The notes under the pieces are model-generated. The model was not told where the DNA came from, did no database searches, and saw only the letters and a list, made by a program, of their open reading frames with translations. Made by a program: the position numbers and the translations under genes. Below are positions 23,869 to 27,268 of a stretch of 64,000 nt of DNA, piece by piece. Origin of the DNA: Anaerotignum propionicum DSM 1682. Lineage in GTDB: Bacteria > Bacillota > Clostridia > Lachnospirales > Anaerotignaceae. How positions within the stretch are numbered: position 1 is the first letter of the stretch; every line of letters begins with the position of its first letter. The stretch is from contig NZ_CP014223.1 in NCBI RefSeq assembly GCF_001561955.1, positions 2,790,001 to 2,854,000 of the forward strand, written 5' to 3'.

Positions 23869-24927
23869 TTAAAACTTGCGAATTTGGGACAAAACACCCT
23901 TTGTTCCATCAGATAACCCGCTTTTTTCCATTTTTTCTATATATTTGTACCTATTTTCATACAAAGTATTAATATTCTCCATGAGTGATTCAGGTGTCAT
24001 TTCCTCCTCAGGCAGAACTCTTGCAAAACCTTGTTTTGCAAAAGAAGCCGCATTCAAAATCTGATCCCCACGGCTGGCATTCTTTGAAAGAGGAATGAGC
24101 AAATGGGGTTTTTTCAATGCCAAAAACTCGCAAATGGAATTACTCCCTGCACGAGATACAATAACATCTGCCGCGGCAAATAAATCTGCCAGCCCTGCGG
24201 AAACATACTCAAACTGCTTATATCCCTTTTGTTTCAACAAATCTGTTTCTAAATTACCCTTTCCGCATAGATGGATAATATCAAACTTTTGCAAAAGCGC
24301 TGGAAGCTCCGCCCTAAGGCATTGATTCAGCTTCACTGCCCCCAAGGAACCCCCCATCATCAAAAGCACAGGCTTATTACCGTCAAAACCACATGTTTCA
24401 AGGCCCTTTTGCCGATTTCCGTCAAACAGTTCCTTGCGGATGGGTGAACCTGTATGCATACCCTTTTGCTTTGAAATATGTCCTAGGGTTTCGGGAAATG
24501 TTGTACAAATTACCTTTGCAAAGGGCATTGCAATTTTATTTGCCAATCCCGGGGTAATATCTGACTCATGGATAATTACAGGAACCCCATTTGCCTTTGC
24601 CGCTAAAACTACAGGCACCGCAACAAAGCCTCCTTTGGAAAATACCAAATCAGGCTTAATCTCTTTGATTCTCTTTTTTGCTTCTGCCACACCCTTTACC
24701 ACACGAAACATATCACTGAAATTCTCTTTTGAGAGGTAGCGTCGAAGCTTCCCCGTAGGAATACTGTAATATGGTATTCCTTCCGCCTCAATCAAACTTC
24801 GCTCTATCCCTTTTTCCGATCCAATATAAATAACCTCCCAACCGTCTTCTTTTAAAAACGGAATCAGCGCCAAATTCGGCGTTACATGCCCTGCCGTGCC
24901 GCCACCGGTTAAAACAATCTTTTTCAT
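23869..24927 (-). CDS. murG: UDP-GlcNAc:lipid I transferase MurG
   Basis: 352 residues. Adds GlcNAc to undecaprenyl-PP-MurNAc-pentapeptide (lipid I) to give lipid II at the inner membrane face. N-terminal [15 protein letters not shown] loop, [30 protein letters not shown], then the C-terminal [14 protein letters not shown] and [31 protein letters not shown]-sugar site. Here murG stands alone, not in the dcw cluster, divergent from the GTPTMx-ferritin-like gene. Confidence 0.97.
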
Positions 24928-25077
24928 GGTTTTCCCACCTCTAAATTTTACCTAATTTTATTTACTTATAGCTTATCAGAAATCCTCATTGGTATCCACA
25001 CTTATTTTATGCTCTTTCAGTCAAGAAAACAAACTTTTTTGCATAAGATGATAGAAAAAAGAAAAGGAGCCTGACCA

Positions 25078-25977
25078 ATGTATCCATATAACAGAAATAC
25101 ACGAAATAATAACCATTCCCTTGAAATAAAAGAACGAGGTACTGGGTCGCCTGGAACATCGGGAACACCCACTATGCAGGGCACTCCTACTATGAATGGC
25201 ACCCCTACTATGGGGGGTACTCCTACTATGCAGGGCACACCCACTATGAATGGTACTCCTACTATGCAGGGTACTCCTACTATGCGAGGTACACCTACTA
25301 TGGGAGGTACACCTACTATGCAGGGTACTCCTACTATGCGAGGTACGCCTACTATGGGAGGTACCCCTACTATGCAGGGTACTCCTACTATGCGTGGTAC
25401 GCCTACTATGGGAGGTACACCTACTATGCAAGGTACTCCTACTATGCGAGGTACACCTACTATGTCTGGTACACCCACTATGCGGGGCACCCCTACTATA
25501 TCTGGTAACAACGGTACAAATGGAATAAATGGGGTACTCACAGAAAATCAAAAGGCTGCCTTAGCTGAAGATCATCATTTGATGGAGATATTATACATGG
25601 CACAGCAGGATAGTGCCGATATGGCAGAGCGTTACGCGAATCTAATGACCGACCCAAATATGGCATCGTCAGCCAATGTTTTAAAAACAATGTATCTGGA
25701 TGAATTAAAACATATCAATCAGTTAAAAGAAGCATATTATTTGATTACCGGCACTAGAGACACCAATGAGATAACCGGCACCACGCCAGACACCTTGGGC
25801 CAAGAACTGTTGGAGGATACTCTCCTTCTGGAAATTGATAACGGTGATTTTTACCGCTCTTTATTTTTATCCATGCCCAGCCAAGATTTAAGAGATATTT
25901 TCTTTGAAATCTCCGCAGATAAGATGAGTCACGGCAATGCCTTAAGCTATCTGTTTGCCAAATATTATGCTGGATAA
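25078..25977 (+). CDS. GTPTMx-repeat protein with C-terminal ferritin-like domain
   Basis: 299 residues, no signal peptide. Residues 1-28 are polar (MYPYNRNTRNNNHSLEIKER). Residues 29-142 are 19 tandem hexapeptides Gly-Thr-Pro-Thr-Met-X, where X is Gln, Asn, Gly, Arg or Ser (the last unit has Ile for Met). A linker rich in Gly and Asn leads to a helical domain (about residues 155-298) that looks ferritin-like: AEDHHLMEIL in helix 1, DELKHINQL (E-x-x-H) in helix 2, an acidic third helix (LLEDTLLLEIDNGDFY) and FFEISADKMSHGNAL in the fourth. Such domains occur in clostridial coat and rubrerythrin-like proteins. AAAGGAG stands before the ATG. Function unknown; a spore-coat or surface role is inference from the repeat style and sporulating host. 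The opposite strand is also open across the repeat, an effect of the 18-base period. Confidence 0.85.
   Translation: MYPYNRNTRNNNHSLEIKERGTGSPGTSGTPTMQGTPTMNGTPTMGGTPTMQGTPTMNGTPTMQGTPTMRGTPTMGGTPTMQGTPTMRGTPTMGGTPTMQGTPTMRGTPTMGGTPTMQGTPTMRGTPTMSGTPTMRGTPTISGNNGTNGINGVLTENQKAALAEDHHLMEILYMAQQDSADMAERYANLMTDPNMASSANVLKTMYLDELKHINQLKEAYYLITGTRDTNEITGTTPDTLGQELLEDTLLLEIDNGDFYRSLFLSMPSQDLRDIFFEISADKMSHGNALSYLFAKYYAG
25162..25503 (+). repeat. 18-bp tandem repeat coding GTPTMx (19 units), with a 54-bp higher-order period
   Basis: Nineteen uninterrupted 18-base units, no spacer. In the second half (from unit 6) the sixth residue cycles Gln-Arg-Gly, so three-unit blocks of 54 bases have been duplicated several times; codon choice is also shared between blocks. 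Units 17-19 break the cycle (Ser, Arg, Ser). Confidence 0.95.
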
Positions 25978-26038: not shown

Positions 26039-26449
26039 ATGAGCGACTGTATTTTTTGTAAAATCTTAAACGGAGATATTCCGTCTGCCACCATATATGA
26101 AGACGAGGAATTCAAAGCAATTTTGGATCGGTTTCCCGCAAACGAAGGCCATGTATTAATATTGCCCAAGGAACATTCTGCAAATATTTTTGAAATTGAT
26201 CCTCAGTTAGCAGGTCGCCTTTTTACCCTTGCCACAAAAATCGCTAGGGAAATGAAACGTATTTTAGGTTTTGAGCATATGAATGTCATGCAGAATAATG
26301 GCACCGTTGCAGGCCAAACGGTATATCATTTTCATCTGCATTTGATTCCTCGCTATGAAAACGACAGCATTACCATTGCATATCAGCCAATGGATTTGAC
26401 AGATGAGCAAATTTCTATCATGCGCAAAAAGCTGGAGCTGTCGCTGTAA
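26039..26449 (+). CDS. HIT family nucleotide hydrolase
   Basis: 136 residues. Histidine-triad proteins of this Hit/HinT type hydrolyse nucleoside phosphoramidates and related dinucleotides. Zinc-type N-terminus MSDCIFCKILNGDIPS with CxxC, then FPANEGHVLILPKEH and the triad HFHLHLIPR near residue 100. The ribosome-binding site is embedded in the inverted repeat at 25988-26034. It lies 60 bases after the ferritin-like gene and is followed by its own terminator. Confidence 0.95.
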   Translation: MSDCIFCKILNGDIPSATIYEDEEFKAILDRFPANEGHVLILPKEHSANIFEIDPQLAGRLFTLATKIAREMKRILGFEHMNVMQNNGTVAGQTVYHFHLHLIPRYENDSITIAYQPMDLTDEQISIMRKKLELSL

Positions 26450-26674: not shown

Positions 26675-27268
26675 ATGGACAAAACAGATTACAGTGTATT
26701 GGTTGTTTTTCTTTTCCTATATGTGTTTATAACCTTTTGCGGACAGTGCCCCTATATTAATGCTGTACGTTTTTCTGTTATTTGCCTATGTCTGATTCCT
26801 GCTATGCGTTACGGCGTTCCTATGGCGGCAGCCTTTACCCTCCTCAGTGATGGTTTTCTACTGTTTTCCTCCTATGAAAAAATGGGGGTTTTTTTCTTCT
26901 GCCTTGTACAGCTTTTTTATATCTCTTTTTTTCTGGATAAACGCCCCTCTCCTTGGTGTTTTTTCTTCTGTCTACCCCTCATACTTCTTCCTTTACCTGT
27001 ATTGGGGGGAGTTTATGCTCTTCTATTTTTATTGCATGCCTTTATCGCCTTTTCCCTCTGGAAACAAAAAAAGGCAAAGCCCTTCTTCGGGCTATACCTT
27101 TTGGGTCTTTTTCTGTTCATTTGTTGTGATATCTCCGTGGCAATCGGTTATTTTAGTGCGCCGAATCCCATTCTTATTTGGATATTCTATGCACCCTCAC
27201 AAATTCTCTTGGCTTTTACTGCCAAAGCGTTGCCACCTCTGCCAAGACCGTTTGTTCTTTATCCTTGA
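26675..27268 (+). CDS. Polytopic membrane protein, possibly YhhN/TMEM86-like
   Basis: 197 residues with seven or eight hydrophobic helices and very few charged residues. The spacing of LLSDGFLLF, CLVQLFYISFFLDKR, LFICCDISVAIGYF and IFYAPSQILLAFTAKAL recalls the YhhN/TMEM86 (lysoplasmalogenase-like) family, whose members carry Asp residues in matching helices; this is a weak resemblance and I would not call an activity. GAGGTG stands 7 bases before the ATG at 26675; an earlier ATG lies within the upstream terminator. The last 53 bases overlap the end of the convergent acyl-ACP thioesterase gene. Confidence 0.6.
   Translation: MDKTDYSVLVVFLFLYVFITFCGQCPYINAVRFSVICLCLIPAMRYGVPMAAAFTLLSDGFLLFSSYEKMGVFFFCLVQLFYISFFLDKRPSPWCFFFCLPLILLPLPVLGGVYALLFLLHAFIAFSLWKQKKAKPFFGLYLLGLFLFICCDISVAIGYFSAPNPILIWIFYAPSQILLAFTAKALPPLPRPFVLYP

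Follow-up and report, generated by a model that had tools for sequence, protein, structure and literature searches.

Different repeat arrays at one site of a ferritin-like protein family with a probable spore-layer role in Anaerotignum propionicum and its relatives

The window analysed here, a stretch of 64,000 nucleotides from Anaerotignum propionicum DSM 1682, encodes a protein (25078-25977, plus strand; 299 amino acids plus stop) in which an array of hexapeptides precedes a ferritin-like domain. We suggest, with a probability of roughly 0.6, that it is a spore-layer protein of coat, crust or exosporium type, made by the mother cell, in which a ferritin-like core is joined to a spacer prone to repeat formation. 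The GTPTM array by itself is a species-level curiosity. The point is rather that several lineages acquired repeats at this one site, and that these repeats differ.

The reading frame is preceded by AGGAG (25065-25069) and opens with a conserved motif, MYPYNRNT (25078-25101, plus strand); 28 of the 29 related loci L002 to L030 share the MYPY start. Further along the same strand lie the array (25162-25503, amino acids 29-142), the linker GNNGTNGINGV (25504-25536, amino acids 143-153), which resembles the N-G-T-rich junction of the congener G001 (UBA1042, locus L006), and the ferritin-like four-helix domain (25537-25974, amino acids 154-299). The first-pass annotation described the repeat as a tail, but it is an internal insert between the N-terminal motif and the domain. 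No signal peptide was seen when the sequence of the whole protein was read by eye. The genome (G000, 3.12 Mb in one contig, grouping with Anaerotignum) holds one copy of the gene, and the family was found in 59 of 98 relatives (E 0.001). The gene occupies a conserved locus: a divergent murG-like gene (23869-24927, minus strand) and a downstream HIT-family gene (26039-26449, plus strand), both named by sequence reading, accompany it in 29 of the 30 loci L002 to L031, L029 being the exception.

A link to sporulation, which the first-pass annotation had raised among other possibilities, is likely, and two indirect lines of evidence favor it. The first is the upstream region. There, GCATAAGAT (25041-25049, plus strand) resembles the -10 element of sigma-E and sigma-K promoters. 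Of 29 close loci, window included, 27 have GCATA between -75 and -25 relative to the start (mean 3.2 and largest value 8 in 500 shuffles), and 23 have it between -37 and -51; because these loci are related, the 27 occurrences represent conservation and not 27 events. In C. difficile, the -35 element is reported to be AC for sigma-K and ATA for sigma-E, with -10 boxes such as CATATTAT and CATATAAT (PMC3789822, available part). The close loci speak against our reading in this respect: AC 16 to 18 bases 5´ of the -10 box occurs in none of the 29, window included (null mean 4.1), and ATA in three (null 4.2), the latter exceeding its null in neither the close nor the distant set. The distant set comprises 18 loci whose proteins begin with MYPY or MFYFP; five of these loci belong to the window's own family. 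CATA was found in 14 of these (null 5.7) and the sigma-K-type arrangement AC-N16-18-CATA in 10 (null mean 1.7, reached by none of 500 shuffles), among them the repeat-bearing L059, L060, L062 and L063; the spacing was taken from the C. difficile paper, and several upstream sequences had been inspected by eye beforehand. CATA-N2-AT is enriched in the close set (16/29, null 3.9) and shows no excess in the distant one (4/18, null 3.6). A further pattern, C[AT]-N16-18-CATA, was set aside, having been chosen after inspection of the sequences. The region upstream of the genome's own spoIVA contains CATAATAAT. Elsewhere in the window, at 27184-27211 on the minus strand, there is a second match to CAAG-N15-GCATANNNT, which makes two matches where shuffles give 0.2.

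The second line is co-occurrence with SpoIVA. A search of 245 genomes of the order, each at least 90% complete, was positive at E 1e-8 in 75. The family is present in 74 of the 182 genomes with SpoIVA and in one of the 63 without it (Fisher p 8e-11, phylogeny ignored); thus 74 of the 75 positive genomes have SpoIVA, which is also present in the window genome. The association has to be weighed against its lack of correction for phylogeny, against 108 SpoIVA-positive genomes that lack the family, and against the proportions in the 98-genome set, where not every genome is complete (54 of 82 with SpoIVA, 5 of 16 without). Four of these last five are less than 90% complete and one is at least 90% complete. 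The window genome also has a CotH-family gene (G000:C1:1563616-1564767, minus strand); CotH is a coat kinase family in B. subtilis.

The spore-layer reading is further supported by the absence of a readable signal peptide, by the differing repeats at one site described below, and by the occurrence of rubrerythrins in clostridial spore layers or extracts. The available parts of the respective reports place rubrerythrins among the exosporium or coat proteins of C. difficile and also report them from C. sordellii and Moorella, in extracts of spores or of their outer parts. Against it stand the assignment of a C. difficile rubrerythrin to sigma-G, a forespore factor (PMC3789822, available part), an exosporium study of C. 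sporogenes whose available portion names neither rubrerythrin nor ferritin, and the absence of an array from six of the eight genomes of the genus. Other papers cited, again through the portions available, are PMC4942563, PMC8745062 and PMC5927469. The literature search found no spore proteome of this clade and, among titles and starts of abstracts, with most subscription journals outside its scope, no paper describing this ferritin-like family.

The C-terminal domain of 146 residues is modeled by AlphaFold2 as a four-helix bundle (pLDDT 93.3, pTM 0.87), and by fold it belongs to the ferritin-like superfamily (Foldseek probability 1.00, best E 4e-3). The first-pass annotation had read both a helical domain with E-x-x-H type motifs and a ferritin-like fold from the letters alone, and the model bears it out; the motifs in question are DELKH and DKMSH. 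Bacterioferritin and Dps-like chains are the closest PDB structures (TM about 0.6-0.7), none of them matching at E 0.001 or better. A single-sequence search of solved structures gave one match at chance level (E 0.77), and the window domain alone matched nothing in Pfam at E 0.01. At that threshold PF02915 (Rubrerythrin) was matched by 16 of 27 aligned close members, and two distant repeat-bearing relatives exceed the Pfam cut-off. In the relatives G100 and G088 (loci L064 and L065), an additional, similar region extends C-terminally beyond the domain.

These matches also fit an alternative that we consider unlikely: a soluble rubrerythrin-like protein of the vegetative cell, serving in oxidative stress or iron handling, in which the array would have expanded almost neutrally because the linker tolerates it. 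The fold suits it, as do the short or missing linkers of most of the 74 ORFs surveyed and the murG-like and HIT genes at the same locus. The sporulation-type upstream elements and the frozen codon positions of the array argue against it, and so does the metal site. The canonical set of six di-iron ligands consists of E in helix A, E-x-x-H in helix B, E in helix C and E-x-x-H in helix D. The corresponding positions (26, 56, 59, 99, 129 and 132 in domain numbering), read by eye from profile alignments to 2fzf, 8w1d and 3e2c, hold S26, E56, H59, E99, K129 and H132 in the window, so that two of the six ligands of a di-iron ferroxidase or rubrerythrin are replaced. Replacement is general in the close family: in 27 members Glu occurs once at position 26 and twice at 129, whereas 23 retain E56 and every one retains H59, E99 and H132. 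A metal-handling core, as proposed in the first-pass annotation, is weakened by this, although four ligands remain. Moreover, the residues adjoining the changed ones stay acidic (position 25 in 25 of 27, D128 in 27 of 27), which leaves room for another kind of metal site. Of 55 distant relatives, 40 have Glu and 5 have Lys at position 129; on an unrooted comparison, this distribution suggests that Lys129 is derived within the close clade. Changed sites occur outside that clade too, His132 being present in 38 of the 55. In a MAFFT alignment in which column 26 is apparently shifted by one residue in some rows, all six ligands were found in five of the 55 distant rows and in one of the 27 close ones; helix A of the distant relatives is left out of the comparison for that reason.

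The array itself contains 19 GTPT units, all in register. It had been described as 19 perfect hexapeptides; the number and register stand, while the units are 18 GTPTMx and a final GTPTIS, with one M replaced by I. Unit by unit, the sixth residue is Q N G Q N Q R G Q R G Q R G Q R S R S; the supposed Q-R-G cycle is confined to the middle of the array. Across the 19 units, none of the ten first and second positions of codons 1 to 5 varies. Four of the five third positions do, three synonymously and one by a change of ATG to ATA in a single unit. Such frozen first and second positions point to constraint on the array peptide and make recent slippage or an assembly artefact less likely. The exact DNA pattern of GTPTM-x-GTP occurs 18 times in the genome, always within 25162-25503. 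The exact pattern of two adjacent GTPTM units was found in one of 391 genomes of the class, the window's own, and was absent from the viral contigs searched. Matches of the array to the SclB adhesin (16.4 bits, cut-off 325) and to collagen (below the Pfam cut-off) were rejected as reflecting composition only. Antisense to the array, 25017-25541 (minus strand) is an open frame of 174 amino acids with IVGVPx repeats and an elastin-like look, most simply a mechanical by-product of a repeat free of stops.

It is improbable, in our view, that the array folds into a beta-solenoid with three hexapeptides per 18-residue coil and so forms a rod or filament. AlphaFold2 does build strands with an 18-residue period over the array of the full protein (block pLDDT 63-83), and TRF gives the DNA repeat its highest score with a 54-bp unit (441, against 350 for an 18-bp unit). 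We discount the modeled solenoid, since the five models disagree with one another (mean pLDDT 78.3 to 60.9) and solenoids of this kind are a reported artefact (PMC11795689, available part). Amplification of a 54-bp unit would explain the DNA period as well, and the repeat of the congener G001 has a period of 8.

That congener leads to the comparison with relatives. In the eight genomes of the genus the linker is short in six; the window has the GTPTMx array and G001 an octapeptide array of NGVPNGT(I/T) type, interrupted by an assembly gap, in which Met is confined to the ragged flanks. The order-wide survey took the 75 matches and one genome of the 98-genome set (G091), 76 in all, of which 74 gave readable ORFs; the first 14 loci were chosen partly for long frames and the remainder added later. 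For distant members, "family" denotes a homologous domain of unproven orthology: 18 of 55 start with MYPY or MFYFP, and many lack the MYPY start. Most of the 74 linkers are short or absent. Seven (window, G001, G199, G214, G142, G170 and G091, from five genera and four families) exceed 100 residues and have a periodicity reached by none of 200 shuffles; the value of G001 is inflated by N, but its octapeptide is plain in the sequence. In G074 the linker is likewise long, but its periodicity is weak (reached by 1 of 200 shuffles). The units in other relatives are Asn/Gly/Tyr/Thr-rich, Asn-rich, NNQPLNNRRPMD, NEPLNNRRPMD or GVQPPVNGVPGVQP, and L059, L060, L062, L063 and L067, from other families of the order, each carry their own long, differing repeat at the same linker position. 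The array thus arose locally, on a protein that is conserved and in other respects fairly ordinary. A tree of 17 domain sequences leaves the genus as an open fork, equally compatible with the two repeat-bearing congeners being sisters or not. Their N-G-T-rich junctions and common LTE-Q residues give a hint that both might go back to an older common insert.

Since seven of 74 ORFs hold long repeat linkers of differing sequence, the Met array is not the function of the family. Binding of soft metals, for instance Cu(I) or Ag(I), which the first-pass annotation had raised as one possibility, is very improbable. It could draw on 18 regularly spaced Met residues and on the Met of the distant RRPMD-type repeat (L062, L063), but the repeat-free genus members and the Met-free units of G001 are homologues of just the sort that the annotation itself had named as evidence against it. 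That the protein is a ferritin-like cargo of an encapsulin can be practically dismissed: six of 27 close members match EncB_fam weakly (best E 2e-4) and one matches EncFtn-like (E 3e-6), but the encapsulin family PF04454 was found in none of the 20 genomes searched, the window's own included.

Returning to the spore-layer protein, we propose the following course of events. During sporulation the mother cell would synthesize the protein, which has no readable signal peptide and would join the layers surrounding the forespore by means of the MYPYNRNT motif and its ferritin-like bundle. Between these two parts lies a stretch that would act as a slot in which repeats readily form, filled in different species by different arrays rich in Gly, Pro, Thr or Asn, here by GTPTMx. 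Such an array would most likely be extended and hydrated, a spacer on which the thickness or the chemistry of the spore surface depends, and its Thr residues may be glycosylated or phosphorylated. If this is right, then spore-forming Clostridia other than the model species have turned a ferritin-like scaffold to a structural use in the spore and quickly alter its spacer by repeat expansion, and the little-known spore surface of Anaerotignum-type anaerobes gains a concrete candidate. A bolder version, which we put forward tentatively, sees an undescribed spore-surface family spread over the whole clade, in which the ferritin-like fold holds a hypervariable display array in place; in one clade, part of the fold's metal site has been replaced. 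Repeats particular to each species (periods of 6, 8, 11, 12, 13 or 14 residues) would then occupy one slot, as a counterpart of the BclA-type nap without collagen.

How does this protein compare with known systems? With the rubrerythrin, bacterioferritin and Dps-like superfamily (PF02915, PF00210; 1bcf, 8w1d) it has the four-helix bundle in common, together with E-x-x-H of helix B, Glu of helix C and His of helix D; it departs in Ser26 for Glu of helix A and Lys129 for Glu of helix D, these Glu being missing in 26 and 25 of the 27 close members. The hexapeptide of the left-handed beta-helix is [LIV]-[GAED]-X2-[STAV]-X, with three per coil. The modeled array strands have the corresponding 18-residue period, in a type of model reported as artefact (PMC11795689, available part). 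The CotB and CotG proteins of B. subtilis also carry a repeat region within the protein, and the window genome has a CotH-family gene; the repeats of CotB are Ser-rich according to the available text (PMC7821199), unlike GTPTM, and a coat role is presumed here. Finally, the collagen-like exosporium glycoproteins of BclA type, as described in the sources available in part, resemble our protein in their Gly/Pro/Thr repeats and in a spore-surface setting, which for our protein is presumed. The Pfam Collagen match of the array (E 0.0018) scores 18.4, below the curated cut-off of 27.2. Gly occupies every sixth position of GTPTMx and not every third, Thr standing at the place of the second Gly, so that uninterrupted Gly-X-Y triplets are absent, and the partner domain is ferritin-like.
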